In this document: positions 2,354 to 44,110 of the stretch, in pieces | Position numbering within the stretch: the first letter of the stretch is position 1 | Layout of the letters: the number at the start of each line of letters is the position of its first letter | Assembly (NCBI RefSeq): GCF_014696435.1 | Contig: NZ_JACJQG010000076.1 | Location: 1 to 47,600, forward strand | Source of the DNA: Calothrix anomala FACHB-343 | GTDB taxonomy: Bacteria > Cyanobacteriota > Cyanobacteriia > Cyanobacteriales > Nostocaceae | Length of the DNA stretch: 47,600 bases | Direction: 5' to 3' | Made by a program: the position numbers and the translations under genes | Notes under the pieces: generated by a model | What the model saw: the letters and a program-made list of their open reading frames with translations, nothing else | The model's database searches: none | What the model was told of the DNA's origin: nothing

Positions 2354-3328
2354 ATGGAGCAATTTACCGCCTCAATTATTATTGCACACAGAGGCGCTAG
2401 TGGTTACCGTCCAGAACATACATTAGCGGCTTATGAACTAGCAATTGATTTAGGGGCTGATTATATTGAACCCGATTTAGTGGCAACTAAAGATGGTGTA
2501 TTAGTTGCGCGTCACGAAAATGAAATTTCGGAAACTACCGATATAACCCAGCATCCAGAATTTGCTGAACGTCGAACTACTAAAATTATTGATGGGGAAA
2601 GTAAGACAGGCTGGTTTACAGAAGATTTTACCCTAGCAGAACTGAAAACCCTGCGGGCAAAAGAGCGTATTCCCCAAGTGCGATCGCAGAATACAATTTA
2701 TGATGGATTGTTGGCAATTCCTACATTCCAAGAAATTATCGATTTAGCTAAAACTAAAAGTATTGCTGTTGGGCGGACTATTGGTATTTATCCAGAAACT
2801 AAACACCCGACTTATTTTCAATCTATCGGGTTAGCTTTAGAAGCACCTTTACTAGCAATTTTACAAGCTAACGGTTATCAAGGCGCAAATGCACCGATTT
2901 TTATTCAATCTTTTGAAGTTAGCAACCTCAAATATTTAGCGAGTAAAACTGATTTACCTTTAGTGCAATTGTTGAATAATACAGGTAAACCTTATGATTT
3001 TGTCGTTAATGCTGATGAGCGTACCTATTCAGATTTAGTCACAAAATCAGGTTTACAAGAAATTGCTGAATATGCACAAGCGATAGGAATTCATAAAAAT
3101 TTGATCGTTCCTATAGATAGTAATAAAAAATTGCTGTCTTCGACATCATTAGTTAGTGATGCTCATGCAGCATCTTTACTAGTCCATGCTTGGACATTCC
3201 GCAATGAAAATTTATTTTTACCTCTCGATTTTCAAGATAATCCGCAAAAAGAGTATGAGTTATTTTTCAGTTTAGGAGTTGATGGAGTATTTAGCGATTT
3301 TCCTGATACTGCAAATTTATTGAAGTGA
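2354..3328 (+). CDS. Glycerophosphodiester phosphodiesterase (GlpQ-type)
   Basis: Hydrolyses deacylated phospholipids (glycerophosphodiesters) to glycerol-3-phosphate and an alcohol. Seen: the GDPD active-site pattern with HRG at H12-R13, PEHT at 20-23, the metal ligands E39 and D41 in YIEPDL, and H54 in ARHENE. The insert with IYPETKHP is typical of the longer GlpQ subgroup rather than the short UgpQ type. The protein starts almost directly with the first beta strand and shows no signal peptide, whereas enterobacterial GlpQ is periplasmic. It may therefore be cytoplasmic or use another route. It stands alone, divergent from ligA. Its link to the phosphorus-scavenging gene at 33665 is functional only. 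Confidence 0.92.
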   Translation: MEQFTASIIIAHRGASGYRPEHTLAAYELAIDLGADYIEPDLVATKDGVLVARHENEISETTDITQHPEFAERRTTKIIDGESKTGWFTEDFTLAELKTLRAKERIPQVRSQNTIYDGLLAIPTFQEIIDLAKTKSIAVGRTIGIYPETKHPTYFQSIGLALEAPLLAILQANGYQGANAPIFIQSFEVSNLKYLASKTDLPLVQLLNNTGKPYDFVVNADERTYSDLVTKSGLQEIAEYAQAIGIHKNLIVPIDSNKKLLSSTSLVSDAHAASLLVHAWTFRNENLFLPLDFQDNPQKEYELFFSLGVDGVFSDFPDTANLLK

Positions 3329-9580: not shown

Positions 9581-12500
9581 ATGTGCCCACGCGGAGTAAC
9601 AACCAGTAGCTCGACTCAAGCAAAGCAAACAATTGTCCCGAAATTGTGGTTATTACTGGTGGGTGTGAATCAATATCAAGATGCGGAACTTCCTTCTCTA
9701 CGTTACTCTGCAGTTGATTGTCAGGTACTTGCTGAAGCTTTAGCAGTTGCAACCAAGGAGCAATTTCCCCAAAAAGAGGTAAAGATTTATCACGACTTTG
9801 CCCAAAAATTGCCACTATTATCCACAGTGAGAACAAGTTTACAGGAAATTGCGGCTAATGTGCAAGCAATTGACACAGTTTTATTTTATTTTTCTGGTCA
9901 TGGGATATTACAACCAAATACTCAAGAAGCATTTTTGTGTTTGGCAGATACCCAAAAAGATAATCTAGAACAAACTGGTTTACCTGTTAAAGAACTTTTG
10001 GCACAGTTAAGCAAAAGCGGCGCACAAAATCAATTAGTTTGGTTAGATGCTTGTCATAGTGGCGGAATGACACTCCGGGGAGTTGGCGAAACTTTATTAA
10101 ATCCTACGCCGCAATTAGTAGAGGTTTTGCAACGCAATGCGGGTAAAAGTCAGGGTTTTTATGCTTTACTTTCCTGTGATGTGAATCAACTATCTTGGGA
10201 ATTTCCTGAATTAGGACATGGCGTATTTACTTATTTTTTAACGCGGGGTTTATATGGAGATGCTGCTGATGCTCAAGGCGTAATTTTTGCGGATGGGCTG
10301 TATCGCTATGTTTATCACCAGACTTTACAATATATAGATAAAACCAATCAACAATTACGCTTAATTAACCAGCAAAAACGCGGCAAGGGAGACACAGAAC
10401 TGAAGCGCGAATATCCCTTGCAAACGCCTAAGCGGATTGTCGAAGGAGTGGGAGAATTAATACTAGGTAAAATTCCCGTGATCGCTGAATCGAATTCTGT
10501 CAGACTAGCATTAGTAATTGAGGGATTCATCGGTTCTCAAGGCACGCGTGATTTTAGTAAGATATTAGTTGATACTGGCGATTTTGAATTGGAATATTTG
10601 CTGCGTTCAGGAGAAACAACTGGTAAAGATATTCGCCATGCAATTCAACAAGCTTTAGGTGTCTATTATCGCCAAGTAGAAAATGATGGCAAGACAAGGG
10701 GAGATGGAGAAAAGCCTGTATTCGCTCATCATCATGATGATGCATTTCCTCAACCTGTCTTGGATTTGCGGGAAACCTCACAGCTAAATTCAGAAGTTTA
10801 TTTGCATAATTCCCCGCATCCTCTACCAGAAGCTGCAACTATATTATTATATCTAAGGGGAAGATTAGAAGAAACTCCCACCGGAGAAGCTGCATTATTA
10901 ATAGCAGATGATATTTGGCTGAGTCGTTCTTGGTTAAAACAACAATTACGCCGTTCTCAAATAAACCAACAGATTATAATTTTAGATTTTCCTGTAGTAG
11001 CGACTAATGTATCTTCCCTGCAAGAATGGGTAGAGGATTTGCGCCTAGAATCGGAGAAAGGACAATGTATTATTGCGGGTACTTCGCCAAAAGACAATCC
11101 TGAATTTTTCGCCCAAACATTAATTGCAACTTTAAAAGCTGCTAATCAACAAGCTGGTTTATCTGTAGCAGGTTGGATTACCCAATTACAAGTGCAATTA
11201 GCAGCACAAACACAACGCCATCCATTTTTACCCTTGCATTTTTGGTTATCAGGAACTCAAGGCGTAATTGAAATTATCCCCGCAACAACTGGCGCACGCA
11301 GTCAGAAAAAATCGGCTTTAGATTTAAGAATTTGTCCTTACCGAGGATTAAAAGCTTTTGCGGCAGAAGATGCACAATATTTTTTCGGACGAGAATCTTT
11401 AACTCAGCATTTAATTAGTCAAATTGCTCATAAATCTTTCTTAGCTGTAGTCGGTGCTTCTGGTAGTGGTAAATCTTCCGTCGTGCAAGCAGGATTAATT
11501 GCTCAATTACGTCCGGGAAAACAATTACCTGGAAGTGATTCTTGGTTAATTAAAAGTATGCGTCCCGGTGCGCGTCCTTTGGCAGAGTTGGCGAGGCGGT
11601 TGGGAGAAGGGAGACAGGGGGGACAAGGGGGACAAGGAGGACAAGGAGGACAAGGGGGTTTGTCTTCATCGTCGCAGCTGGTGTTGGAGGGAATGCTTTA
11701 TCAGGGGGTGGAAGGCTTTGTTTATTGGTTGCGGAGTCGTCCTGAGTCTGTGGTAGTGTTGGTGGTGGATCAGTTTGAGGAGTTGTTTACCCTTGCGCCT
11801 GGTGAAGATAGACAGCGATTTTTAGAGTTGCTGCTGGGTGCAATGGAATATGCGGCTGATAAGTTTAAATTAGTAATTACTTTACGCGCTGATTTTATCG
11901 CTGCTTGTTTAGAAGTTCCAGCGCTGGCGAGTTTATTACAAGAATCTAGTATATTGGTTCCGCCGAATTTGAGCGATCGCGATTATCGTCGTGTCATTAT
12001 TAATCCAGCAGAACAAGTCAGCTTAAAAGTAGAGTCAGAACTAGTGGAAGTTCTGTTACAGGAATTAAACCACTCCGCTGGCGATTTACCACTGTTAGAA
12101 TTTGTTCTAGAACAGTTGTGGGAATTCCGCCAAGATGGAAAACTGACTCTCGCAGCTTATCAGCAACAGGTAGGTGGAATTAAAGGTGCGTTAGAAAGAA
12201 AGGCGCAAGCTGTTTACGAAAGTTTAGATTCTCCAGCGCAAGATTGTGCTAGATGGATTTTCCTCTCTCTCACCCAATTAGGGGAAGGTACAGAAGATAC
12301 CCGACGCAGAATATGGAAATCAGAGTTAGTGGTGCAAAAATACCCCGTCGCTTTGGTGGAAAGAACTCTGCAAGTATTAACTGCGGCTAAGTTAGTCGTG
12401 GTGAATGTGGATGATGAGGTTGTGAGTCGAGGAAATAAGGGAGATAAAGGCGAAGCTGTAATTGCTTCTCTACCTGCCTCATCTGTCACAATAGAAGTAG

Positions 12501-14902
12501 CTCATGAAATTTTGATTCGTCATTGGTCAACTTTGCGCTGGTGGTTAGAGGAAAATCGTAGTAGATTGCGATCGCAGCGTCAAATTGAACAAGCTGCAGC
12601 TTTATGGAAACATAATCAGGAGCAAACTGATTTTTTGTTGCAAGGTATCCGGTTAGCTGAGGCGGAAGAAATTTATATTAAATATACCGATGAATTATCT
12701 GAAGATGTACAAAGTTTTATTGCAGCTTGTTTAGCCGAAAGAAAACGCCAGCAATTTGCGCAAAAAAAGCGTCTGCGTCAAGCGCAAAGAGCAATTATTG
12801 TGATTAGTGTGTTGGGTATTGCGGCTAGTGGGTTTGGGGTTTTCGCTTATTTGCAAAAACAAGCAGCACAATTAAGGGAAATTTCTGCTTTAAATGCTTC
12901 GTCGGAAGCTTTACTATTATCCAATCAGCAATTAGAAGCTTTAATTGCTGGTGTAAAATCTGGGAGAGAAGTTAAACAAGTATCTACAGCAAATAAAGAA
13001 ATTCAATTAACAACCATTGCGACGCTTGAGCAAGCTGTCAGCCAATCTCAAGAAATCAACCGTTTACAAGAACACAGCCAACAAGTTAACGCCGTAAGTT
13101 TCAGTCATGATGGTAAAATAATCGCCTCTGCTAGCGATGACGGGACAATTAAACTTTGGCGCGCAGATGGTAAAATTCTCAAGACGATTACAGATAATCA
13201 AAGAGTTACATCTTTAGTTTTCAGTCACGACAATAAATTAATTGCTGCCAGTACGGGTAAATCTATCAAACTATATAATATAGATGGAAAAATCATCAAA
13301 GCTTTCACAGAACATACTGATATTATCAACAGCGTTGATTTTAGTCCCGATGGTAAAACGCTTGTATCTGCTAGCCGAGATAAAACTATAAAACTTTGGC
13401 GAACTGACGGAACTTTACTGAATACATGGACTGCTCATAATGGTTGGGTGAATACTATTAGCTTTAGTCCAGACGCTCAAATTATTGTTTCTGGTGGCGA
13501 AGATAATTTAGTCAAGCTGTGGCGCTTTAATGATGGGAAACTGCTGCAAACGCTGTCAGGACATAAAGAACGCATTACCTCTGTAAAATTTAGCCCAGAT
13601 GGAAAAATTATCGCTTCCGCTAGTGGCGATAAAACTATCAATTTATGGAATCGTCAAGGCAAAATTTTACAAACCCTTGAAGGACACACAAACCAAATCA
13701 ATAGTATCAGCTTTAGCCCAAATAGTAAAATGCTAGCTACTGCCGATGATGACGCAGTAATTAAAATTTGGCAGAATCAAAATCCATCCCAAATTGAATA
13801 TATCCTCAGCCAAACTTTAAAAGGACATGGTGGTGTAATTAATAGTCTTAGTTTCAGCCAAGATGGAAAAATGATTGCTTCTGCTAGCGCTGATAAAACT
13901 GTCAGACTTTGGGAAGTAAATAATGTAGGAAATACTTTAGATAAAGGTAAGTTTTACAGTGCCAATTTTAGCCATGATAACCAAATGTTTGCGTCTGCTG
14001 GATGGGATGGAATCATCAAAATCTGGAATAAAGATGGAAAATTAATTAAATCTATATCTGGAAATAAACAGCCAATTTATGCTGTAGACTTTAGCCCAGA
14101 TAATAAAATTATCGCTGCTGCCAGTGACGATAAAACAATTAAATTATGGAATATAGCCAATAATTCTCTACTTCATACCCTCACAGGAAATCTTGAGCGA
14201 GTAACCAGCATCAGTTTTAGCCCAAATGGTAAAATGTTTGCTGCTGGTAGCGCCGATAAAACTATTAAGATATGGCAACTTGCAGATAAAAAATTACTTC
14301 ACACATTAACAGGACATACAGACGCAATTAGCAGTATCACTTTTAGTAATGATGGTAAACTGCTAGCTTCTGGTAGTTACGATCATACGGTAAAACTTTG
14401 GCGCATTGATGGTAGCTTTGTCACAACTTTACAGGGAAATGGACTAGCGATCGCATCTGTGAAATTCAGTCCCGATAACACCATCCTCGCTGCTGCTAGT
14501 TTAGACAATAGCATCAAACTGTGGAACGTCGCCAACGGAACTTTAATCCACACCCTCACCGGACATTCCAGTGGTGTCACCAGCTTGAGTTTTCTCCCCC
14601 ATAGTCAAATAATCGCCTCTGGTAGCGTTGATGGTACGATTAAGCTGTGGAATATCCGCGATGCCTACGGCGGTAAACTACGCACTTTACTCAAAACTCT
14701 AGTCGGTCACCCTGGTAAAATTAATAGCATCAGCTTTAGTCCCGATGGTAATACCCTAATTAGCGCAGGTGAGGATAGCGGGTTAAAACTGTGGAATTTG
14801 AATTTAGCTGACTTACGCCAATACAGTTGCTTGCGTATCAAAAATTACCTAAAAAATAATCCCAATGTCAACGAGAGCGATCGCCATCTCTGCGATAATT
14901 AA
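9581..14902 (+). CDS. Caspase-like peptidase / STAND NTPase / 14 WD40 repeats fusion
   Basis: Signalling ATPase of 1773 residues with a caspase effector. Residues about 20-270 are a peptidase C14-type domain with the catalytic dyad H107 (FYFSGHG) and C158 (LDACHSGG), both intact. From about 582 a novel-STAND NTPase module starts (CPYRGLKAF...FFGRE), with Walker [10 protein letters not shown] (about 625) and Walker [13 protein letters not shown] (about 725). A hydrophobic helix near 1070-1090 ([20 protein letters not shown]) may anchor it in the membrane. Residues about 1160-1755 form 14 WD40 repeats, enough for two seven-bladed propellers that would sense a ligand. Known relatives are conflict or cell-death proteins in filamentous cyanobacteria; its trigger here is unknown. 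A glycine/glutamine tract (GGQGGQGGQ, about 680-694) comes from an expanded DNA repeat. The start is uncertain because no good ribosome binding site is seen. Confidence 0.93.
11610..11658. repeat. Intragenic GGACAAGG tandem repeat
   Basis: Five tandem 9-mers of the GGACAAGGG/GGACAAGGA kind lie inside the STAND domain coding region between Walker A and Walker B. They encode GGQ repeats. The same wording occurs between genes at about 9341-9364. Each unit is a multiple of three bases, so copy-number change keeps the frame. Confidence 0.85.
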
Positions 14903-28766: not shown

Positions 28767-29528
28767 TTATCGACCATTAGCAATTTTTCTTTCAATCACC
28801 GAAATCCGTTCTTGGGTTGCTGGATGGCTACTCAAAAATGATGGTGCAGAAGATTGACGAACTAATTTGCGCAAAAATGCAGGCATAGCCTTGGGATTAT
28901 ACCCAGCCCGGCGCATATACTGCAATCCCTTATCATCTGCATTAAATTCTGCTTCGCGGCTATTAGGTAAGTCTACAGCTAGCTGATAAGCTATAGCGGT
29001 GACAGCACTTTGATCTAAACCTGCTAGGGAAGCAGCACCTTGCGCCAGTTGTGTTTGTTTTAACTTATTAATTAAGTCATTGTTGCAAATATGGGCTATT
29101 TCGTGACCGATAACAGATGCTAGTTGGTCTTCATTATCCACCGCATTTAATAGCCCAGTGTGAACGTAGACATAGCCACCTGTAGTTGCAAAAGCATTAA
29201 TACTAGAGTCGCGAACTACATAAAAGCGAAAAGGAATTTGAGAGCAATTACTAGCTTTAGCTAAACGTTGACCAACGCGATTAACATAAGCGTTGGTTTT
29301 AGAATTAGAATCCAGTCGGTAATTTTGTTTTACCTGTTGATGAATATTTTGTCCCAGGGCGACTGTTTGCTGTGGAGAAATGTTGGACAGTTGTAACAAC
29401 TGCACGCCATTAAATATTAGCTGTTGCCAAGGAAGTGCACTGGCTGGTTCAAGAGAACTCAAGCCAATAGTACAAGCAGTACCTAAACCAAGGATTAAAG
29501 AAACACCTTTATGCATTCTCGATTTCAT
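28767..29528 (-). CDS. M48-family zinc metalloprotease
   Basis: A secreted or periplasmic BepA/LoiP-like peptidase of 253 residues. It has a signal peptide (SLILGLGTACTIGLSSLEPASA), then the M48 catalytic domain. Seen: zinc site HEIAH (H142, E143, H146), third ligand in SREAEFNAD (about E194), the FATTGGYVYVHTGLL strand before it, and FLSSHPATQERI near the end. The family degrades misfolded outer-membrane proteins. The ATG at 29528 is used; the in-frame TTG two codons upstream is less likely. It has no TPR extension and is not obviously part of an operon. Confidence 0.92.
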   Translation of the reverse strand: MKSRMHKGVSLILGLGTACTIGLSSLEPASALPWQQLIFNGVQLLQLSNISPQQTVALGQNIHQQVKQNYRLDSNSKTNAYVNRVGQRLAKASNCSQIPFRFYVVRDSSINAFATTGGYVYVHTGLLNAVDNEDQLASVIGHEIAHICNNDLINKLKQTQLAQGAASLAGLDQSAVTAIAYQLAVDLPNSREAEFNADDKGLQYMRRAGYNPKAMPAFLRKLVRQSSAPSFLSSHPATQERISVIERKIANGR

Positions 29529-29682
29529 AATCAAAAATCAAACGTATACGAGTAATAAACAGCAAAATTGATTTTTACCTTTGCGGCTAAATTAAGTTTT
29601 TTGATAATGAGAAAAAATCAAAATGATCCAGTTTTATAAAGGTGTATTAATTGCTCAATTCGATGAGTTATGTACGTTTAAT

Positions 29683-30065: not shown

Positions 30066-30473
30066 ATGTCAGTGCAAGTTACTCTTTCTCCAGAAACTAT
30101 CCAAGCTGTGATTCAGCAATACTTTGCGGCTAGTCGTTCTGATGATAAAGCTGAGGGTATGGTTGTCTGTTTTGCCGAAGATACTGTCAGCTACGATCCT
30201 GTAGGTGCGCCAGCATTACAAGGCCATAGTCAACTACGGGAATTTTTTCAAGGGGTAGCAGCTTTGTTTACCAAGGTGGAACTCTATGAAGATTTTATTT
30301 CTATCAATGGTAATGAAGCGGCTGTTAAATGGATTGGTCGAGGTATCGGTCAAAATGGTCAGGCTGTGACTTTTGAGGGAATTGATTTATTTGAGTTCAA
30401 CAGTGAGGGTAAAATTCAATCAATGCGGGCTTATTGGAATCCGGCGGCGATGCTGGCACAATTGCAGAGTTAA
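30066..30473 (+). CDS. SnoaL-like / nuclear transport factor 2-fold protein
   Basis: A 135-residue protein with the cone-shaped NTF2/ketosteroid-isomerase fold: YFAASRSDDKAEGMVVCFAEDTVSYDPVGAPALQG at the start, then FEGIDLFEFNSEGKIQSMRAYWNPAAML at the end. Members bind or isomerise small hydrophobic molecules, but many are uncharacterised; the substrate here is not known. The start ATG at 30066 gives the usual length. The stop lies 38 bp before the alpha/beta hydrolase start in the same direction, so the two probably form an operon. Confidence 0.85.
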   Translation: MSVQVTLSPETIQAVIQQYFAASRSDDKAEGMVVCFAEDTVSYDPVGAPALQGHSQLREFFQGVAALFTKVELYEDFISINGNEAAVKWIGRGIGQNGQAVTFEGIDLFEFNSEGKIQSMRAYWNPAAMLAQLQS

Positions 30474-30511
30474 GGCTGATACTTGATTTGACCAAGAAAG
30501 CAGGCGAGAAT

Positions 30512-31573
30512 ATGCGATCGCGTTTAGGGCTAATTCTCAGTTTACTCGGACTATTTTTAAGTAGCTGGATTATCGTTCCAGCTCCTAACTTTACCTTGCT
30601 ACCTCTAGCTGTGGGTAGTCCAGAAATCAGCCCTATATTGTTAATTGGCAACTTAATTGCTTTATTGCTCTCATTTACTGCTAAAAAACAGCTTTTACTC
30701 GCTCGGATTGCAATTGGCTTTAGTTTAAGCGGAATTTTACTCAGTAGTCTGCCTTTATTACAGCTACCTAGCACAATTCAACAAGCAGAGGCGCAAATGC
30801 AACCTTTATTGAGTAATCTGCAAATTCCGGCTGATTTACAAGCCAAAATGCGCCGCCATCCCTTTGTGCTAGCTGATTTATTTACAGGATTAGCAAAACC
30901 CAAAGTTCGCCATCATCAACAAAATTTTGCTGCTGCTGATGGAACTCCCCTAAATATAGAAATTTATCAGCCTCTAACTACTGGTAAGCATCCAGCGATT
31001 GTCACTATTTATGGTGGCGCATGGCGTAGCGGTGAACCAGCGCAAAAAGCCACATTCAACCAATATATGGCAGCACAAGGGTATACAGTGGTGGCTATTG
31101 ACTATCGCCACGCACCCCAATATCGCTACCCCGCACAAATTCAAGATGTACAAGCTGCATTGAATTTTATATTGCAACAGGCAGCTAATTACGAAATAGA
31201 TTCTAGCCGCATTGCAGTTATTGGCTGGTCTGCAGGAGCGCATTTAGCATTATTAGCCGCATATCAGCCAAATACTACCCCAATTCGCGCAGTAATTAAT
31301 TACTATGGCCCGACAAATTTGTTACAAGGCTATAAAGAACCACCATCACCTGACCCTATTAATACCAAAGCTGTTTTAACAGCCTTTTTAGGTGGTTCTC
31401 CTGAGGAGGTAGAAACCCAGTATAAATTAGCATCCCCTATAAACTATGTAAAATCTAACTTACCGCCAACATTATTAATATATGGCGATCGCGATCATCT
31501 CGTAAAGCCAATTTTCGGTCAGCAACTATACCAGCGTCTGCAAAGTCACCAACGACTTTCTCAACGCATTTAA
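30512..31573 (+). CDS. Membrane alpha/beta hydrolase, C-terminally truncated
   Basis: An esterase/lipase-type hydrolase with three N-terminal membrane helices (about 1-95) and a cytoplasmic or lumenal hydrolase domain. Seen: the oxyanion region IVTIYGGAWRSG, the nucleophile elbow IGWSAGAHLAL and the acid residue in LLIYGDRDHLVKP. The catalytic His that normally follows some 30 residues later is missing. The frame leaves recognisable family sequence near QLYQRLQSH and stops after a short odd tail. Directly overlapping this tail, in another frame, begins the end of a DUF4331 protein. A deletion appears to have fused the two genes, so the hydrolase is probably inactive. ATG 30512 is chosen because AGGCGAG precedes it and the membrane helix starts there. 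Confidence 0.78.
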   Translation: MRSRLGLILSLLGLFLSSWIIVPAPNFTLLPLAVGSPEISPILLIGNLIALLLSFTAKKQLLLARIAIGFSLSGILLSSLPLLQLPSTIQQAEAQMQPLLSNLQIPADLQAKMRRHPFVLADLFTGLAKPKVRHHQQNFAAADGTPLNIEIYQPLTTGKHPAIVTIYGGAWRSGEPAQKATFNQYMAAQGYTVVAIDYRHAPQYRYPAQIQDVQAALNFILQQAANYEIDSSRIAVIGWSAGAHLALLAAYQPNTTPIRAVINYYGPTNLLQGYKEPPSPDPINTKAVLTAFLGGSPEEVETQYKLASPINYVKSNLPPTLLIYGDRDHLVKPIFGQQLYQRLQSHQRLSQRI

Positions 31574-32175: not shown

Positions 32176-33156
32176 GTGGCTGAGATAACAGTAGAACCGA
32201 CAAAAACCGGAATTATTTTGACATTTCCTACAGGCTTAGTAGCAGACTCTGACGATAACCAGGATGGAAAACTCTCCACTAATGAAGTTACCAACCATCA
32301 AACAAAACTAGAGAAATTTTTAGGCGATCGCATTCGGCTGATCGATAATCAAGGCGGATCTGGTAAAATCGCTGTTACACCCACCAATAACTTACCAGCG
32401 AATATCCAGAGTAATACTAATACTCACACTACCCTAGAACTAACTTACACTTGGTCACAACCAGTTAGCGCACTCACTATCAACTACGATTTATTTTTAC
32501 CCAATGTCCCCACCGCCCGGTGTTTAGCTACTGTAATTCAAAGTGGAAAAACTCGCAATTTGGTATTTACTCCCGAACAGCAGGAATTTGCGTTAATTGA
32601 CGCTTCTATATGGCAACAAATCGGCAGTTTTATCTTGCTAGGTATAGAACATATTATCACAGGATATGACCATGTTTTATTTTTGATAAGTTTATTAATG
32701 TTAGGCGGTGGTTGGCGTTACCTGCTAAAAGTAGTCACAGCTTTTACTATTTCTCATTCCGTTACTTTGTCGTTAGCAGTATTGAATATTGTCAGTTTAC
32801 CAGTGCGCTTTGTTGAAAGTGCGATCGCACTCACAATAGTCTATGTAGCCGCAGAAAATTTTTGGCGTAAAGATATACGTGGACGTTGGTTGCTGACATT
32901 TATCTTTAGACTCATTCACGGGCTGGGTTTTGCTGGAGTTCTCAAAGAAATTCATCTGAGTCAGTCTAATTTGGCTGTATCCCTGGCTAGTTTTAATATT
33001 GGCGTAGAATTGGGACAAATTGCGATCGTTTCTCTCGCATTTTTGGTGTTGCGTACTATCCAAAAATATCCTTGGGAATTAAATCTGCGACGCTTGTTAT
33101 CTGGTTGTGTTGTCGCTATGGGCTTATTTTGGTTTATCCAACGAGCTTTTTATTAA
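32176..33156 (+). CDS. HupE/UreJ-like membrane protein (5' frameshift)
   Basis: Predicted metal-related membrane transporter of the HupE/UreJ type; substrate unknown. Seen: a soluble N-terminal portion (about 1-150 in this frame), then the characteristic LLGIEHIITGYDHVLFLISLL, FTISHSVTLSLAVL, FIFRLIHGLGFAGVL and FNIGVELGQIAIVSL, giving about six membrane helices with conserved histidines. The coding start given (GTG) is the first possible initiator in this frame. The natural start is probably ATG 32058, which supplies a signal peptide but is one base out of frame because of an extra T. The gene is therefore either newly inactivated, frameshift-expressed, or affected by a sequencing error. A hairpin at 33191-33221 may end transcription. 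Confidence 0.82.
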   Translation: MAEITVEPTKTGIILTFPTGLVADSDDNQDGKLSTNEVTNHQTKLEKFLGDRIRLIDNQGGSGKIAVTPTNNLPANIQSNTNTHTTLELTYTWSQPVSALTINYDLFLPNVPTARCLATVIQSGKTRNLVFTPEQQEFALIDASIWQQIGSFILLGIEHIITGYDHVLFLISLLMLGGGWRYLLKVVTAFTISHSVTLSLAVLNIVSLPVRFVESAIALTIVYVAAENFWRKDIRGRWLLTFIFRLIHGLGFAGVLKEIHLSQSNLAVSLASFNIGVELGQIAIVSLAFLVLRTIQKYPWELNLRRLLSGCVVAMGLFWFIQRAFY

Positions 33157-33190
33157 CCCTGCGTATATTTCAAAAATTATGCGATCGCAT

Positions 33191-33221
33191 TTGTAAGGGT
33201 GGGGTTACCTTGCCCTTACAA
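33191..33221. terminator. Hairpin downstream of the HupE-like gene
   Basis: TTGTAAGGG (33191-33199) and CCCTTACAA (33213-33221) form a perfect 9-bp stem, 35 bp after the stop codon. No strong T-run follows. The rest of the 508-bp gap is A+T-rich. Confidence 0.5.
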
Positions 33222-33424
33222 GTTACTTACTATAACATTTTTATAAGTTATATGATGCCTTAATTCAGGAAATATTGATATTGAATTAAATAAATTTACG
33301 GTGAAATAAGAGATTTTTATTTATTTACAAAATAAGTATTTTTATACGGCTAATAACTGCATAGTATTCTACATAACAGCTTAATACTTAAATTTAAATT
33401 AGCGAATCCTGATAATTCTAATCC

Positions 33425-33454
33425 TTTAACCTTACGCTAGCGATTTCTTAACGT
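33425..33454 (+). promoter_or_regulatory. Candidate Pho-box half sites
   Basis: TTTAACCT (33425-33432) and CTTAACGT (33447-33454) match the cyanobacterial Pho-box half site (roughly YTTAAYYW, the second with one mismatch). They are spaced by 22 bp, twice the 11-bp Pho-box period. They lie about 210-240 bp upstream of the phosphatase gene. A SphR/PhoB link would fit its function but is inferred. Confidence 0.35.
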
Positions 33455-33664
33455 TACCACGATAACTTGAACTACTGAAATAGATATTAATTATATAGAT
33501 ATGACTGAGGATGAGGATAAAATCAAGCCTCTAATTCTCTGCGCCTCTGCGTGAGACTAATTCATATATTTACTCAGCCAATAACAAACTTAAAAATTGA
33601 TAATTTATCGCTTTAAATAACCTCTCCTATTCTCTCAATCTATAATTCACCTCAGTACTAACAT

Positions 33665-36600
33665 ATGGTAACCACAAAAACAATTCGCTTTTCGCAATTC
33701 AATGCTTCCCTAAACCGGAATGCTGATGGTCAGTTAATTACTGATTTATCTACACCTAATAATAATCAGGCGAAAGCTGTTGCCGAAATTATCCAGCGTA
33801 GCAATCCTGATATATTATTAATCAATGAGTTCGATTACTTTTCAGCAAATCCTCAACAGGCGGTTAAATTATTCCAGCAAAATTACCTGGCTGTGAGTCA
33901 AAACGGTGCAAATACTGTTAATTATCCCTACTTTTATATCGCACCTTCAAATACAGGAATTGCTTCGGGATTTGATTTAAATAATGACGGTAAAATTGTC
34001 ACTACCCCAGGCGCATCTGGATACGGCGATGATGCTTTTGGATTTGGTAATTTTCCTGGTCAGTTTGGGATGTTGTTACTTTCCAAACATCCTATTGATA
34101 CTGCTAATATTCGCACCTTCCAAAATTTTCTGTGGAAGGATATGCCAGATTCTTTACTTTCTACAATTTCAATTCCTAATTCTAATACTCCTTGGTATTC
34201 TTCAGAAGAACAAAACGCTTTACGCCTTTCTTCTAAAAGTCATTGGGATGTACCAATTAAAATTAACGGTGAGACAATTCATGTTCTTTTGAGTCATCCC
34301 ACACCACCAACCTTTGATGGAAGCGAAGACCGCAACGGTAAACGCAATCATGATGAGATTCGCTTTTGGGCAGATTATATCACACCTGGTAAAGGTGATT
34401 ACATCTATGATGATGCAGGTAAAAAAGGCGGGATTGCTGCTGGTTCTAGCTTTGTGATTATGGGTGACCAAAATGCCGACCCTGTAGACGGTGATAGTTA
34501 CGACAATGCTATTCGCCAATTATTACAAAATCCTGGCATAAATACTAATGTCATTCCTAGCAGTCTGGGCGCATCGCAACAAGCGACTTTACAAGGTGGT
34601 GCAAACCTAAATCAACGGGGTAATGCTAATTTTGATACCGCAGACTTTGCGGATACTGCACCCGGTAATCTACGGACTGACTATGTATTACCTTCGGCTG
34701 ATTTGACTGTAAGCAATTCCGCAGTATTCTGGCCTGTAAATACTGACCCAAATTTTCCTTTGGTAGGTACTTTTCCCTTCCCCAGTTCCGACCATCGTTT
34801 AGTATATGCAGATGTGGAAGTGGGCGCAACCACAGCAGGGAAAACGATTCCCGATGTCGGATTTTTGGGACAAACTATATTACCTACAGGCTTTATTCCT
34901 CCTGGTGTAGCGGGGATAGTAAATGGTGTACAAGCGCCTTTGGGTGGGTTGTCTGGTGTCGCCTATGATGCAGCTAAAAACCAGTTTTATGCGATCGCTG
35001 ACGATCGCTCTCAATTTGCACCCGCCCGGTTTTATACTTTTACTACCGACCCTGAGAAAATCGCCACAGATGGGGTAATTTTTACCGATGTTACACCCCT
35101 CAAAGATGCTAACGGCAATTTCTTCTCTATTAATAGTCTTGACCCTGAAGGGATTGCGTTAACTAACAATGGTACAGTTTTCATCTCTTCCGAGGGTGAG
35201 GTAAATCCTGGTGCGGGTAGGGTGACTAATCCCTTTATTAAAGAATTTTCTCTCACTACGGGGCAAGAAGTCCGCAGTTTACCTGTCCCCACTAAATTTT
35301 TACCAGTAGTTGAGGACACTAACGGTAACAGTGTAGTAGATGCTGGCGATACCCAAAAAGCAGGTGTATATAATAATTTGGCGTTTGAAAGTCTGACAAT
35401 TACACCTGATCAAAAAACCCTATTTACCGCCACAGAAAACGCTTTATTTCAAGATGGATCAAGGGTTACCACTACAACCGGTAGCCGATCGCGGATTTTG
35501 CAATACAATTTGGTAACGGGACAGCCTGAAAAAGAATATCTTTATATTACAGATGCATCTGTCACCCCCAACCCAGCAACAGGATTTAGTGATAACGGCT
35601 TGGTGGATTTATTAGCGATTGATAATCGCGGGACATTACTAGCTGTAGAACGTTCTTTTGCGCAGGGTGTCGGGAATACGATTAAAATTTACGAAATTAC
35701 TCTGCAAGGTGCAACTGATATTAGCAGTATCGACTCACTCAAAGATTTCAGCGAAACTCAATTAGCGGCTATTCAACCAGCGCAAAAACGGCTAGTCTTG
35801 AATTTAAATGACCTAGATTTGCCGAATGGTACAGATAATATCGAGGGTATAGCTTTCGGTGCGAAATTAGCGGATGGGCGGCAATCTATCGTCTTGGTGA
35901 GTGATAATAACTTTAATCCAGCCCAATTTACGCAAATTTTGACTTTAGATGCAGATTTAGTACCTACCGCAGCGCCAAAAGTCGAAACTCGTCCGGATTT
36001 ATTTGACGATGAGACATTACCAACAGACCAGCGTGCGGATGCTGATGACCCTGCTATCTATATTAATGCTAATAACGCGGCTGATAGCTTAGTTCTTACC
36101 TCGGTGAAAAATGCCGGACTGCGGGTGTATGACTTGTCTGGTAAACTATTGCAAGAAGTGAATCCGGGGGGAATTCGCTACAACAACATTGATTTGCAAT
36201 ATGGTTTTAAATTAGGTAATGAAAAAATAGATATTGCTGTGGCGAGCGATCGCGGTAACGATAAACTAGCAATATTCAAGATAAATCCCAATCCCACGAC
36301 TCCCGGTAAGTACCTGGAAAATATCACTGATAGCAGCATTGGAACAATTTTCCAAGCACCACCTTTTCTTGCGCCTTATTCCTCATCTTCTCGCAGTTCC
36401 TACGGATTAGCTTTATATCGCAGTCCGATTACCAATGATTACTACGTCTTTACCAGTCGTCGGGAAACTGGAGATATCGCCCAGTTTAAACTAATTGACA
36501 AAGGTAATGGTAAAATTGGCGCGGAACGAGTACGAGAGTTTACCATTCCTTCACCCTCCGACTCTGAACGTTCAGCACAGACAGAGGGAATGGTTGTAGA

Positions 36601-39600
36601 CCAAGAAACTGGTTTTCTCTACATCGGTCAAGAAGATGTCGGTATTTGGAAATTCTCAGCTGAACCTAACGGCGGTACAACCGGTAAGTTAATTGATAAA
36701 GTTAAAGGCTTGGGTGGTAGTCACCTCACCGATGATGTGGAAGGATTGACTATTTACTACGGTAAAAATGGTACAGGCTATTTATTAGCATCTAGCCAAG
36801 GTGATAATACTTTTGTTGCTTACACCCGTGAAGGCAATAATGATTATTTGGGTAACTTTGCAATTGGTAGCAATGGCGCAATTGATAGCGTTCAAGAATC
36901 AGATGGTGCGGATGTTGTTAACGTACCCCTTGGCCCTAATTTTCCTTATGGTTTATTTGTAACTCAAGATGGTTCTAATGAACCAGCTAAATTAGTCGAA
37001 GATGATGGGGAGTTTGAAAATATCAATTCTAACTTTAAGTTAGTACCTTGGGAAAATATCGCTAACGCTTTACCCACACCTTTAAAAATTGACACCACTA
37101 GTTACAATCCCCGTAATCCTGTTGCACAACCTAAACTCACTATATATGACTTTAAAAACCTACCCAAATTAGGCACAACTTCCAAAGGTGAAGATATTTT
37201 CTTGGGTGGTTTTTCGGGGTTGTATTTCCAAGGAATTGCACCTAATGGTAATCTGCGATTTGTTACCCATACAGATAGAGGCCCTAATGGCGATTCTGTT
37301 GGTGCAAATCGACCATTTTATTTACCCAGCTTCCAACCAGAAATCGTTAATTTTGAACTCAACCGCACCACAGGCGAAATTACAATTACCAAACGCACCG
37401 GGTTATTCCGTCAAGATGGTAAAACTCCATTAACCGGATTACCAAATCTACAAGCTGGGGCGAATGGTACAGCTTATACCGATGAAATTGGCGTTGATTT
37501 AGATAATAAACCTCTACCTAACGATCCATTAGGTGCAGATTTAGAAGGAATTGTCGTGGCGGAAAATGGTGATTATTGGATGGTGGATGAATACCGCCCA
37601 GCAATTTATCATTTTGATAGTAAAGGTAAATTACTTGATAGATTTATCCCCAAAGGTACTGCAATTGCACCTAATCCCGATCAAAGTGCAGGTACTTTTG
37701 GAACTGAAATATTACCAGCAGTTTACGCCCAACGTCGCAACAATCGCGGATTTGAAGCCGTGGCTTTAGAAGGTTCTAAACTCTACGCCTTTATTCAAAG
37801 TCCAATTGATAACCCTGATGTCGCCAATGACGGAACTTCTAAAGCCTCTCGCAACCTGAGAATTTTAGAATTTGATATCATCAGCAAACAGGTGACAGGC
37901 GAATATTTATATCTTCTCGAAGGTTTACCCGCGACTGATAAAATTGGCGATGCAGTTTCTCTAGGTAAAGGTAAATTCGCAGTTGTCGAACGTGATGATA
38001 ATGGAACGTCGGCGGGGAATAAATTAATCTTCCAAATTGATTTAAAAGGCGCGACCAATATCAATAATCCTGCTAAATTTAGCTTACCATCTGGTAAAAC
38101 TATTGAACAACTAACTCCGGCGGAATTAGCTACAGCAAAAATTACCCCTGTCAGCAAAAACTTAATAGCTAATGCTGCACAGTTGGGTTACACCGGGGTG
38201 GAAAAATTAGAGGGTTTAGCATTAGTCGCACCCAACACTCTGGCATTAATTAATGATAACGATTTCAACGTTACCGGGAAAACTCCTGCGGAAAGATTGG
38301 GAATTTTAGAATTACCAAATAACATCGCAGTTACTAAACCCAAAACATCCCTAAACATCCTCTTAGTAAATGATGATGGTTATCAGGCGAAGGGTATCAA
38401 TGTTCTCTACAATAAATTAGTTGCAGCTGGTCATAAAGTCACATTAGTTGCACCAAAGCAACAACAAAGCGGTCAAGGTACAGCCCTGGATACTGATAAA
38501 TTTGGTAGACCTTTGGAGGTTGTCAATTATGAACCAAATAAATGGTATGTGGATGGTAAACCTGTTGTTACTACCTGGGCAGGAATCGATTATATCTTAA
38601 GAGATAATCCCCCAGATTTAGTGATTTCTGGAATTAATGAAGGAGAAAATCTCGGTTTAGAAGGGATTATTTCCGGGACACTGAGTGCTGCTGTATCTGC
38701 ATTAAATCGCGGTGTACCTGCGATCGCAGTCAGTGCGGGTGTTAAACTAGCAGAACGTAGCAAAGGTTACCCCAGTACTGATAAAGCCTACGATGTTGGC
38801 GCTAATTATGTTGTCGATTTAATTGCCCAATTACAAGCAAAACAAGGCAATAATTCAGCTATCTTACCAAAAGGCATCGGTTTAAATGTCAATATCCCCG
38901 CAACTGACAAAATTAAAGGTATAGCCTTTACAGAGTTTGATAGTGCAGGTAGTTTTGATTTCAAATTTGGGGAATTACCATCTAACTTTGGGACAGGTCA
39001 AGGTATACTTTATACCCAAAATTCTTTACCCAAGGGAACTAAGCCAAAGCCATTCTCAGAAGGCGAACAATTCTTAGCAGGTAAGGTGACAGTCACTCCT
39101 TTTGATGGCGATTGGGGTACAACTCCAGATAAACGCCAAGCACTGAGTTCTCTTGTTAACTTAGAAGTCCCTGGTTTAACGGATGAAATCAAACCTGCTA
39201 GCAAGGCGTTAAATATTTTGCTGGTGAATGATGATGGTTATCAAGCAAAAGGTATTGATGTCATCTACAAAGCTTTAACTGCTGCTGGTCACAATGTTAT
39301 CTTAGTCGCACCCAAAGACCAACAAAGCGGGAAAGGTACTTCCATCAACACCAACAAAATCTTTCAGAATACCGAAGTTGCAGAATTTGATACCAGCAAA
39401 AACAAATGGTATGTCGATGGTACTCCGGTTGTTACCACTTGGGCGGGATTAGATTACATTCTACCCAACAAAGAGAAAATTGCTAAACCAGATTTGGTCA
39501 TTTCCGGGATTAACGAAGGTGAAAACATCGGTTTAGATGCCATTTCTTCTGGTACAATCAGTGCGGCGGTGACTGCATTACAAAATGGTATTCCCGCGAT

Positions 39601-42463
39601 CGCAGTTAGCGCCGGAATTGACCTTGCTGGATTACAAACAGGCGACAAATCCAGCACCGAAAAAGCCTATGAAATCGGTGCGAGGCTGGTTGTTGAAGCA
39701 ATTAACCAACTCCAAGCCACTCAAGGTAGTAACGCAGATTTACTTCCCAAAGGTGTGGGTTTAAATATCAATATCCCCGCTTATAACCCGGATATACCCA
39801 AATTCAGCACAATTACGGGGGTAGCAGTTACCAAATTTGACCAAGCTAGCAGCCTCGGTTTAAAGGTTGGTGAAATTCAGCCGGGAGTTCCTGGCTTAAC
39901 TTTAGGCGCTTCCAGCAATACAGGCACAGGGGATTTATCATCGGAAGGGGGTAGATTCTTAGAGCGAAATATTACAATTACCCCCATCGATGGTAATTGG
40001 AGTGCAACCCCAACCAGCCGTGAACAAGTCGCCAACGCTGCTACACCCATCTCGGTAAATGGAATCGCTAGCGGTGACACCACCCACAACTCTACAGTTC
40101 TGTGGGCGCGGAGTATCTTCCCCGGAAAAGTAAAATTTGAATATTCCACTGATGCCAACTTTAGCGCGATCACCGGCACAAAAACCATCAATGTTACCAA
40201 TATCAACCAGCCAGTGAAAGTTAATGTTGGTGGTTTGCAAGCGGGAACCCAGTATTATTACAGAGTCACCGATGCAGCAGGCGCAACCGCCACAGGTAAA
40301 TTTAGTACGGCTGCAAATCTTGGTACAAAAGCAGGGTTAAAATTCGGTGTCTCTGGCGACTGGCGCGGCGAATTAGCACCCTATCCAGCTATTAGCAATG
40401 CAGATGAGGCGAATCTGAAATTCTTCTTTGAATTTGGCGATACCATCTATGCAGACTATCCTTCACCGGGACTGAGAAACCCAGACGGGACAGAAAAAGC
40501 CCAAGCTACAACTTTAGAAGATTACCGCGCCAAACAAGCAGAAGTCTACAGCGATCGCTATGGTAAAAATACTTGGCAAGATTTACGGGCTTCCACCTCT
40601 ATTTTGGCAACCATTGACGACCATGAAGTAGTCAACGACTTCCCCGGCGGTAAGAATTTAGCAACCGCCTCCGCCGCCGAACAAGCCTTATTCGGTGCGA
40701 CTTCCGGCTTAGTCAACGACTCGCCCCTCTACGAAAACGGTCTGCAAGCCTTCCAAGAATACAACCCCATCCGCGATCGCTTCTACGGTCAAACAGGTGA
40801 TGCCCGCACTGATGGAGAACGCAAACTTTACCGTTATAATACATACGGCAGTGATGCTGCCACCTTCGTTCTCGATGCCCGTTCTTTCCGAGATCCAGAA
40901 TTACCAGATGTTACTAATCCCAACGATCCGGCGCAAGTTGCTGATTTTCTGAGTAAGTCTTTTCAAGGCGATCGCACTTTATTAGGAAAGCAACAACTAA
41001 AAGACCTCAAACACGACCTCAAACAAGCTCAGAAAAATGGCATCACCTGGAAGTTTATCATGGTGCCAGAGCCAATTCAGAATTTAGGGGTGCTGGCAGC
41101 AAGCGATCGCTTTGAAGGTTACGCCGCCGAACGCACGGAAATTCTTAAATTCATCAACGATAACAACATCAGTAATGTTGTTTTTGTCACGGCTGATATT
41201 CACGGTACAGTAGTCAACAACCTCACTTACCAATTAGCGCCAGGTCAACCACAAATTGCTACCAGTGCCTTTGAAATCAGCACCGGTTCCGTAGCTTTCG
41301 ATGCACCGTTAGGCCCCACATTAGCAGACTTTCTCACCCCTGCCCAAAAAGCCTTATACAATTCTCTGCCTGTCGCCAATGATGCCGATAGTCTAGTCAA
41401 TGACAAAGACGATTTCATCAAACAGGCGATCAACGCTGGTTTAACTCCTCTGGGTTACGATCCTGTAGGCTTAAATAACAATCTCCTCCAAGCCAACGGC
41501 TTAATTAACGCCAAACTATTACAAGGAGATTACATCGCCACTCAAACTTACGGCTGGACTGAGTTTAATATTGACCCCCAAACTCAAAAGCTAACTGTTA
41601 CCACCTATGGTATAGAACCATACACCCGTGAGGAATTAGCCGCTAACCCCAGCGCAGTTACCAACCGTCAACCGCAAATTGTCAGCCAGTTTGAAGTAGA
41701 TCCCGCCAAAACATCAGAGATTCCAGGTTCTACCTACAATCTCCAGCCTGGTCAAACTATATCCACAAGTAACGGTGCGGATACTATCGAGGGTAGCCAA
41801 GACAATAATATTAAAACCGGTAACGGTGATGACACAGTATTTGCTGGTAGCGACTCTTTAGTCTCCACAGGTAATGGAAGCGATCGCGTTTTTGTGGGTG
41901 TGAATAGCCCTGCTAAAAATACTACTGTTAATGGTGATGCAGGTAACGATGAACTCACCGTAGTTGAAGCTAGTGGTAGCAATCGTCTATCTGGGGGTGC
42001 TGGTTCTGATACCCTGAAAGTAATTGAAGGTTCTCATCAATTCCTCTTCGGTGGTTCTGGTAACGACATCCTCACCAGTAACGGTAACAATAACCGACTT
42101 AATGGTGGTTCCGATGATGACACACTTTTCGCTAACACCAATGACACCTTACTAGGTGGTAATGGCGATGATATCTTATTTGCTGGACAAGGCGGTGGTA
42201 ATCGCCTAACTGGTGGTGCTGGTAGCGATCAATTTTGGATTGCTAATGCTAGTATTCCAATTAGTAAAAACATTGTTACTGATTTTACTCCAGGAATTGA
42301 CATCATTGGCCTTGGTGGTCTTGGATTAACTCAATTCAATGACCTAAATTTAATACAACAGTGTAGTGATACTTTAGTGAAAATTGGAAATTCGGAGTTA
42401 GCTTCCTTACGCGGAATTACCGCAAATACCCTCACTGCTAGTAACTTTACTTTCATGGCGTGA
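33665..42463 (+). CDS. Giant RTX exoprotein: EEP + phytase-like + beta-propeller phytase + 2 SurE + PhoD
   Basis: A 2932-residue secreted multi-phosphatase. Order (approximate residues): EEP nuclease/phosphatase 1-390 ([31 protein letters not shown]); phytase-like esterase 395-770 ([20 protein letters not shown]); beta-propeller phytase 775-1150 ([20 protein letters not shown]); second phytase-like esterase 1155-1555 ([26 protein letters not shown]); two SurE nucleotidases 1560-1840 and 1847-2125 (both [12 protein letters not shown] and ISGINEGEN); PhoD phosphatase with Fn3-like start 2128-2690 ([25 protein letters not shown]); RTX repeats 2695-2932 ([16 protein letters not shown]). There is no N-terminal signal; the RTX end implies type I export. 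Together the domains could release phosphate from DNA, phytate, nucleotides and phosphoesters. No ABC exporter genes are adjacent. Confidence 0.93.
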
Positions 42464-42982: not shown

Positions 42983-43993
42983 TTATTTAGCAGCTACAAG
43001 TTCTTTACTCTCTTCATTGGAATGTTGATTATTCTCCTGTTCTAACCTTTCAATGATTCGCTTAGATATTTCAGATACTTTTCGATATATCATGGTCTCA
43101 GCCTTAGTCTCCTCTAAGAATATCTTCCATGCTCTATCCAATGTTTTATCTAATTCTTCAATTCCTTTTACTTTAGGTTGGAGATTTTTCTTTAATGTTT
43201 CACCTGGTTTAACTCCAAAGATAATCCATTTACCTATGTACTCTCCATATCTCTGGCGTGTTTCCCTTGTGGTATAATGTTCTCTCCTAGCAAAATTCTG
43301 AGCAACAATTCTAATAGTTTTATTATAATCCTCAGCATTCAGTGATGCTTTAGATATAGAAGTTATACCTTCCGAATTAGCACCAAATTTCTGTGCTTCT
43401 AGGTGGGCTATCTCTGCTCCTCTCATACGCCTAGAATCATTATATTGAATCAACAATGGTAGTAGATAATCATCCCTTTTTATATCTATATAAATGGTTC
43501 TTACTGACTGCTCCAAATAATTATCAAATAATTTTTGTATTTGCGCTTCATCCTTGGATTTACTTTTAGCTAAGAGGGCGAATACATGAGCAATAGCAAA
43601 TATTCTATGTCTACCGCCAATCAAATAAATTTCTTTTTCTAAAACTCCCACTACAATATCAATGATTAACCATTGGTGTTCTATAAAAATTGAACGGGCA
43701 AGTTCTTTAACCCGTTCTGTTTTAATCTCATATTGCTTAAACTTTCCCTCACTATTAGGTAAGGCTTTTGTCAGAATTTCTCTCAATGTATAAGACTTTG
43801 ATCCCGGTATTGAAGTATAAAGCTCTTGATAATTTTTAGTAAAACTCTCTTTATCGTCTCCTTCAATATTTAAATCTACATCTGGCAATTCTTTAGATTT
43901 AATGAAACAAGAAGACTTTTTGTCTGAGGAGAGTTGTATAAACTTTCTGTAATTTAAATCACTTGAACTTTGAGGCGTTTGATTAGTATTCAT
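42983..43993 (-). CDS. ParB/sulfiredoxin-fold-like protein on the element
   Basis: Not a named gene. The product of about 336 residues carries a ParB/Srx-type segment: VKELARSIFIEHQWLIIDIVV, then EIYLIGGRHRIFAIAHVFALL, comparable to the LAxSI...YxLIxGxRRxxA pattern of ParB-like nucleases and partition proteins. GGRHR also recalls the DGQHR motif of DndB-like proteins. A long charged alpha-helical C-terminal part follows (KRIIERLEQENNQHSNEE). It may serve partition, plasmid-like maintenance, or a modification-dependent system; no ParA partner is visible. ATG 43993 gives the plausible start (MNTNQTPQSS); an in-frame ATG at 44110 adds 39 residues of uncertain character. No Shine-Dalgarno sequence is seen at either. 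No HIP1, unlike chromosomal neighbours. Confidence 0.65.
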   Translation of the reverse strand: MNTNQTPQSSSDLNYRKFIQLSSDKKSSCFIKSKELPDVDLNIEGDDKESFTKNYQELYTSIPGSKSYTLREILTKALPNSEGKFKQYEIKTERVKELARSIFIEHQWLIIDIVVGVLEKEIYLIGGRHRIFAIAHVFALLAKSKSKDEAQIQKLFDNYLEQSVRTIYIDIKRDDYLLPLLIQYNDSRRMRGAEIAHLEAQKFGANSEGITSISKASLNAEDYNKTIRIVAQNFARREHYTTRETRQRYGEYIGKWIIFGVKPGETLKKNLQPKVKGIEELDKTLDRAWKIFLEETKAETMIYRKVSEISKRIIERLEQENNQHSNEESKELVAAK

Positions 43994-44110
43994 GATCAAA
44001 TATCTAAATAATACAAATTTCAGTAAGTAATCAGAGGATTCTCTAACTAATTGCACTCGATTATCTACTGATAGATCTTCTATGAGCAATCTGGAACTGA
44101 GTATGTGCAT

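Follow-up and report, generated by a model that had tools for sequence, protein, structure and literature searches.

A window of 47,600 nucleotides (the whole stretch of DNA that was analysed) from Calothrix anomala FACHB-343, a cyanobacterium of the family Nostocaceae (assembly GCF_014696435.1, contig NZ_JACJQG010000076.1, positions 1 to 47,600 of the forward strand), contains a giant gene that joins several predicted phosphate-releasing domains on a single polypeptide. With a probability of roughly 0.75, its broad role is that of a Pho-regulated, exported multi-enzyme of the Nostocaceae that acts extracellularly to free phosphate from a mixture of organic phosphorus compounds. Confidence that any individual predicted domain is active is lower than in this broad role, and channelling along the chain is given low confidence; we infer the activities, export, location, and cooperation of the domains, and binding of the chain to the cell surface is putative and unproven. 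Organic phosphorus is important to many cyanobacterial blooms, and should the chain function in this way, the presence of this one gene would point to simultaneous use of phytate, nucleic acids, nucleotides, and diesters. The gene, its domains, and its putative regulatory site are as follows.

33425..33454 (+), putative Pho box (SphR/PhoB site) of three 8-bp repeats with 3-bp linkers, TTTAACCTtacGCTAGCGAtttCTTAACGT, 240 bp upstream of the ATG
33665..42463 (+), multidomain gene of 2932 codons, ATG-to-stop frame
33752..34795 (+), EEP nuclease/phosphatase domain, amino acids (aa) 30-377 (PF03372 Exo_endo_phos, 1.7e-26)
34937..35914 (+), Phytase-like domain 1, beta-propeller (PF13449; model with a predicted local distance difference test score, pLDDT, of 93.2)
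36005..37114 (+), beta-propeller phytase (BPP), aa 781-1150 (PF02333, 5.5e-85; match to 1poo)
37202..38266 (+), Phytase-like domain 2 (PF13449, 1.6e-53)
38357..38938 (+), SurE copy 1 (PF01975, 3.4e-45; D1570, D1571, S1602, N1658)
39215..39838 (+), SurE copy 2 (PF01975, 1.2e-45; D1856, D1857, S1888, N1950)
40061..40309 (+), PhoD_N domain, aa 2133-2215 (PF16655, 2.1e-15)
40382..41314 (+), PhoD catalytic domain, aa 2240-2550, conserved from D2232 (PF09423, 1e-46; match to 2yeq)
41867..42460 (+), RTX-type C-terminal tail, aa 2735-2932 (HemolysinCabind; tail likeness to one other protein of the genome)

The original prediction, made from the letters of this DNA, that one gene carries all these domains is borne out by an intact frame of 2932 aa with no internal stops and by Pfam scores, taken over the whole protein and judged against curated cut-offs. 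Exo_endo_phos reaches 93.8 bits against a cut-off of 24.5, with its best stretch at 30-377; Phytase-like reaches 477 bits over two stretches (306.4 and 183.9 singly) against 27.6; Phytase, at 781-1150, reaches 286 against 21; SurE reaches 298.6 over two stretches (156.3 and 157.7 singly) against 22.1; and PhoD_N and PhoD reach 57.5 and 160.1 against 30 and 27, respectively. HemolysinCabind, the last of the families proposed for this check, scores 33.9 against 23 for the whole protein (near aa 2793-2821), but no individual stretch reaches the cut-off; the repeats are thus degenerate and the predicted RTX ending is putative. Comparison with solved structures matches the BPP part to 1poo (E 8.6e-71), each SurE copy to 2wqk/5ksq, and the PhoD part to 2yeq, and no sequence match in the PDB was obtained for the EEP part up to E = 1. 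The two Phytase-like domains are 30.5% identical to each other and the two SurE copies 59%.

The active sites had been described as intact, which holds for most of the residues in EEP, BPP, both SurE copies, and PhoD and for their conservation in relatives, with substitutions at one position each in BPP and PhoD. In the alignments of relatives, which leave out the window's own locus and count some genomes twice, the EEP residues N13, E55, H211, D268, N270, D376, and H377, which we take to be the motif residues of the superfamily, are kept in 88-90 of 90 rows. The BPP part was mapped on 1poo by alignment, with the residue number assumed to be the chain index plus 28. Of the 14 positions presumed to be Ca2+ ligands or phosphate contacts there (E43, D55, D56, K76, R122, Y159, K179, E211, E227, D258, E260, Q279, D308, and D314), 13 are identical in the window and K179 is replaced by R933, itself Arg in 110 of 116 rows; several others of the 38 mapped positions differ. 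D794, D795, K815, R863, Y913, E974, E990, D1024, E1026, Q1045, D1074, and D1080 are kept in all 116 rows. The window's BPP is 39.9% identical to a Bacillus velezensis copy and shares most acidic Ca2+ ligands as well as K76, R122, and Y159 with the Bacillus 3-phytase (1poo/3amr), whereas the solved Bacillus enzyme consists of one 355-aa domain and has Lys179 where the window has Arg.

Both SurE copies keep the D, D, S, and N that are presumably catalytic, after the Escherichia coli and Thermotoga maritima SurE proteins, in 10 of 10 rows (9 distinct loci); these residues are common to the solved 5'/3'-nucleotidases 2wqk and 5ksq, which are unlike the window's copies in that the latter stand in tandem on an RTX-tailed chain. 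Known SurE nucleotidases dimerise through exchange of the C-terminal arm. A model of the tandem from six sequences 76-98% identical to the window's reached a pLDDT of only 47.0, too low to use, so that no conclusion on pairing within the chain is drawn. The PhoD residues D2259, Y2262, D2318, D2319, H2320, D2511, and H2513 are kept in 21 of 21 rows, and the PhoD_N-PhoD arrangement and the motifs GDTIYAD, DDHE, and ADIHG align with Bacillus subtilis PhoD (2yeq). As for the Phytase-like domains, the proposal that they are esterases went too far: both PF13449 matches stand, and what is seen is a propeller fold, in domain 1, whose model (pLDDT 93.2) best matches YjiK and other propellers. A kinship of this domain to the PhoX or phytase folds was considered and set aside, neither being among the best 50 matches in either of two listings, although a relation is still possible. 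These propellers may be accessory domains, their putative activity being unproven.

Evidence on regulation comes from a matrix built from 28 sites of Su et al. 2007 (PMC1906773). Against it, the putative Pho box scores 15.7, the highest value on both strands of the window; among 2000 dinucleotide-shuffled versions of the upstream region, 1% score as high (p = 0.01). The middle repeat of the box is weak. A significant box (p < 0.05, 300 shuffles each), often of near-identical sequence, lies upstream of 27 of 37 relatives. In a larger set, from which the window's own locus was left out, scores of at least 12 were obtained for 65/112 BPP genes and 23/40 separate GDPD/Phytase-like genes versus 31/501 other frames (at least 250 aa, same loci), with Mann-Whitney p-values of 6e-19 and 6e-15 that overstate the case because several genomes count twice and the relatives are not independent. 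Scanning 33157-33670 for promoters and terminators yielded no score above those of shuffled sequence. Expression data exist for a relative, nsp6490 (NSP_RS02895) of Nodularia spumigena CCY9414, which shares the EEP-Phytase-like-BPP core and is reported to be induced by phosphorus limitation (PMC3610870, PMC9846622), with log2 increases of 4.63 on day 7 and 5.45 on day 14 (PMC9846622). Its locus, identified here as L050 by inference from a gene holding GDPD and BPP, has a strong Pho box (16.95). The window gene is probably switched on by phosphate shortage.

The EEP part was also considered as the 'nucH' of Su et al. 2007; this was rejected, as the frame downstream of that Pho box (found in two genomes, Pfam being run on one) encodes a 2377-aa LTD/Ig/RTX protein without a match to the window's domains. 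The same published box also faces a divergent Phytase-like/GDPD frame (L163:1-1537, L164:13584-14499), and one box may serve both.

Chains of this kind recur within the cyanobacteria, so the view that such a one-chain repertoire is unusual cannot be kept in the sense of a one-off. A sample of 386 cyanobacterial genomes yielded 38 with BPP, including 29 Nostocaceae, and 34 of the 38 have a BPP frame of at least 1410 aa (a match in genome G159 contains stops and was not used); in a contig profile scan, the best 80 of 506 confirmed BPP loci were all cyanobacterial. The 109 distinct BPP frames, the window left out, have a median length of 1836 aa and reach up to 4421 aa, with EEP-Phytase-like-BPP as the usual start. 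This core is followed by Phytase-like 2 and RTX in 23 frames, by nothing found in 10, and by RTX in 7, while PhoD, GDPD, DUF4114, DUF11, and SurE pairs also occur. At least four of six enzyme-type families, choice-of-anchor I included, are present in seven of the 109 chains (five with four, two with five); the window has four.

The full order EEP-Phytase-like-BPP-Phytase-like-SurE-SurE-PhoD is present in eight loci, namely the window, L035, L047, L053, L075 (Calothrix brevissima NIES-22, 2942 aa), L080 (Nostoc sp. 106C), L159, and L160, where L053 and L141 are one record and several other genomes appear twice under different locus ids. Five of the eight end directly in RTX, L035 ends in DUF4114, and L047 and L053 carry DUF11-GDPD modules before the tail. 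No description of the full chain turned up in a literature search that was thin on subscription journals, and an earlier description may exist. In L093, L095, L097, L098, and L106 the BPP frame is shorter, at 1043-1150 aa, and begins with Phytase-like 1, EEP being absent from the frame. Plasmid records in PLSDB include 21 with BPP, all under 60% identical, and the SurE-bearing chain of Nostoc carneum NIES-2107 (L079, AP018181.1) lies on a plasmid record.

Selection on the modules was assessed from the ratio of nonsynonymous to synonymous substitution rates (dN/dS) against L075, L080, L077, and L047, with the row for L035 left out as out of line, a wrong frame having probably been picked there. 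The ratios range from 0.04 to 0.27, with synonymous divergence near saturation against L047, and those of SurE and PhoD (0.04-0.13) lie below those of the tail (0.20-0.27). Judged by these ratios, each module is under purifying selection, and since the same structure also recurs in independent genomes, the chain is not a product of chance.

Export is presumed to proceed through a type I exporter reading the RTX tail, with binding of Ca2+. This secretion route rests on the resemblance of the tail and on exporters somewhere in the genome, where three type I exporter ATPases exceed the HlyB cut-off; inspection of the chain by eye, with no predictor run, revealed no N-terminal signal peptide. Only one full-length relative of the tail (aa 2735-2932) occurs in the same genome, at the end of a contig 91 frame of 1565 aa, where 196 residues align with 71% identity; the next best of the genome's 55 tail matches reaches 41% over 124 residues. 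That frame (L071:3611-11323 region) combines PhoX-like, split Phytase-like with GDPD, and RTX parts, and a full PhoX gene follows downstream. Strong Pho-box-like sites precede the PhoX gene (17.9 and 16.65), and a weaker one of 12.2 lies about 550 bp upstream of the 1565-aa frame, whose best score within the tested 500 bp is 5.28. Elsewhere the GDPD block is fused to a BPP chain or adjoins it, which suggests that the two tail-sharing proteins jointly widen the repertoire that some relatives hold on one chain.

Under the proposed mechanism, phosphate shortage would lead SphR/PhoB to bind 33425-33454 and turn the gene on, and the chain, recognised by its RTX tail, would pass through a type I exporter and fold in external calcium. 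Outside, EEP would cleave nucleic acids or other diesters, the nucleotides so formed would be dephosphorylated by the SurE pair, BPP would attack phytate with calcium, PhoD would act on diesters and monoesters, and the Phytase-like propellers would be accessory domains of putative activity.

Several observations weigh against this reading. On the side of regulation, 10 of the 37 relatives have no significant box within 500 bp, including the full-order chains L035 and L053 (220 bp scannable in the latter), and 47 of 112 BPP genes score under 12; in nsp6490, moreover, GDPD replaces SurE and PhoD, so that its induction supports the core and not the window's exact chain. More precisely, a split Phytase-like/GDPD block and DUF4114 stand there in place of Phytase-like 2, both SurE copies, PhoD, and RTX. 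Most BPP relatives lack SurE and PhoD, and therefore no fixed enzyme set is needed. As for export, the 20 other window frames scanned include no exporter, and the RTX repeats are degenerate as described. At the active sites, BPP E783, aligned with E43, is variable (Glu in 47 of 116 rows), and PhoD D2232, invariant in 21 of 21 rows, takes the place of the Cys that we take to be the iron ligand of Bacillus PhoD; PhoD also scores 105.9 (110.3 in a second scan) against the NCBIfam AlkPhosPhoDBac equivalog cut-off of 1000. Finally, no enzyme activity has been measured for chains of this family in the literature examined.

Some of these points bear on a chain that is catalytic only in part, in which BPP and perhaps EEP work and the Phytase-like, SurE, and PhoD parts are binding or spacer units. 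The resemblance of Phytase-like 1 to YjiK and other propellers, the Asp for Cys in PhoD, and the coming and going of SurE and PhoD among relatives 94-97% identical in BPP would fit it. We consider it unlikely, as SurE and PhoD show no variation at their metal and catalytic residues in any row and their dN/dS lies below that of the tail. Rather less probable is a polyprotein that is made or exported whole and then cut at its linkers into enzymes acting separately. Modules are lost exactly at linkers and also stand alone (SurE of 319-324 aa, BPP of 450 aa, GDPD genes beside BPP genes), and 14 of 118 BPP loci (12 distinct records, L037/L105 and L045/L130 being the same; the window is included in the 118) have, upstream of the BPP gene and in its orientation, an M48 peptidase-TPR frame that might encode a processing protease. 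Within the DNA examined, this peptidase is absent from the other 104 loci; the M48 gene found in the window (28767-29534) is short, is encoded on the opposite strand, and shows only distant similarity (85 bits).

A secreted nuclease and nucleotidase serving ends other than phosphorus, such as the clearing of matrix or of rival DNA, would account for EEP and two nucleotidases on one chain, and adhesion or antagonism is a frequent role of large RTX proteins. It is nonetheless improbable in view of the Pho box, the phosphorus-starvation induction of nsp6490, and the composition of BPP chains, in which, within a set drawn by BPP, EEP or Phytase-like 1 almost always accompanies the phytase and SurE is rare. 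An artefact of assembly or frame-joining, for which the unusual length and nothing else speaks, can practically be discounted, given that independent genomes, some assembled into one or a few contigs, show the identical order and that each module is under purifying selection. The reading as a Pho-regulated, exported multi-enzyme is thus preferred.

Regarding the evolution of the chain, the frequent gain or loss of whole enzyme modules is supported by comparison of relatives. A SurE pair with 76-100% identity over at least 560 residues occurs in 13 of 218 genomes of the family, with looser or single copies in five more (E up to 1e-60); the pair sits between Phytase-like 1 and BPP in L157, L158, and L063 and before BPP in L154. 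The pair of C. brevissima NIES-22 is 98% identical to that of the window. Tolypothrix sp. FACHB-123, 97% identical in BPP, lacks SurE and PhoD, while PhoD alone is missing in N. linckia FACHB-104 and N. carneum. The aligned proteins of near relatives break at linkers a few residues long, and the RTX tail is conserved among them. On a BPP tree of 108 rows, the window left out, the least numbers of changes were 7 for SurE, 13 for PhoD, 10 for GDPD, 17 for Phytase-like 2, and 16 for EEP. This was a quick tree with 30 of 105 inner branches unresolved, on which some frames cut by contig ends count as lacking a module. The result supports frequent gain or loss but not the exact numbers, and the counts cannot separate gain from loss.

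A wider interpretation is offered tentatively, with the odds somewhat against it, namely an evolvable 'phosphatosome' of the Nostocales, a Pho-controlled exported chain in which in-frame cassettes (tandem SurE, PhoD, GDPD, and choice-of-anchor I) would be exchanged at short linkers around a constant phytase core, strains re-tuning the organic phosphorus they can use, separate genes sharing the secretion tail, and linkage letting the nuclease feed the SurE pair. Cassette swapping is compatible with the data, its adaptive value being putative. Near-identical chains that occur naturally both with and without SurE or PhoD offer a ready test of what each module, and their linkage, contributes.

The SurE copies had further been called old duplicates. 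Their 59% identity and a SurE tree in which the first copies of Nostocaceae chains form one group (support 93) without any second copy inside agree with this, while the second copies form no supported group, so that the claim is unproven; many forks of this tree are unresolved, and L069 and L070 are each present twice under two names. Stand-alone SurE frames in L155:9382-10353 (324 aa) and L156:9684-10640 (319 aa) are 59% and 56% identical to the giant's SurE, and the window's genome also holds two stand-alone SurE genes.

Among other proteins, Psip1 with an added phytase-like domain likewise unites a cyanobacterial phosphatase with such a domain, although it belongs to another phosphatase family, and the available part of the report does not mention a comparable array (PMC11098088). 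The gene nsp6490 is annotated in print as 'glycerophosphoryl diester phosphodiesterase (phytase domain)' (PMC9846622), a short annotation of the sort that hides the other domains of a chain.

In the neighbourhood, seven window genes were compared with the fetched loci. HupE (32176-33156), a 375-aa frame (42983-44110), Crp, and two others matched nothing there beyond the window's own copy, the hydrolase at 30434-31573 had a further counterpart in L074, and the M48 gene showed a distant resemblance to M48 frames of 14 loci. These M48 peptidase-TPR frames lie 1.4-6.3 kb upstream of the BPP gene, always on its strand, as in the example L105:4321-6000, a candidate processing protease (Pfam was run on one such frame). 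Elsewhere in the window, a stand-alone GDPD gene is located at 2354-3328, and 9581-14902 encodes a 1773-aa nSTAND1 NTPase with many WD40 repeats, NLR-like and possibly a defence or signalling protein.

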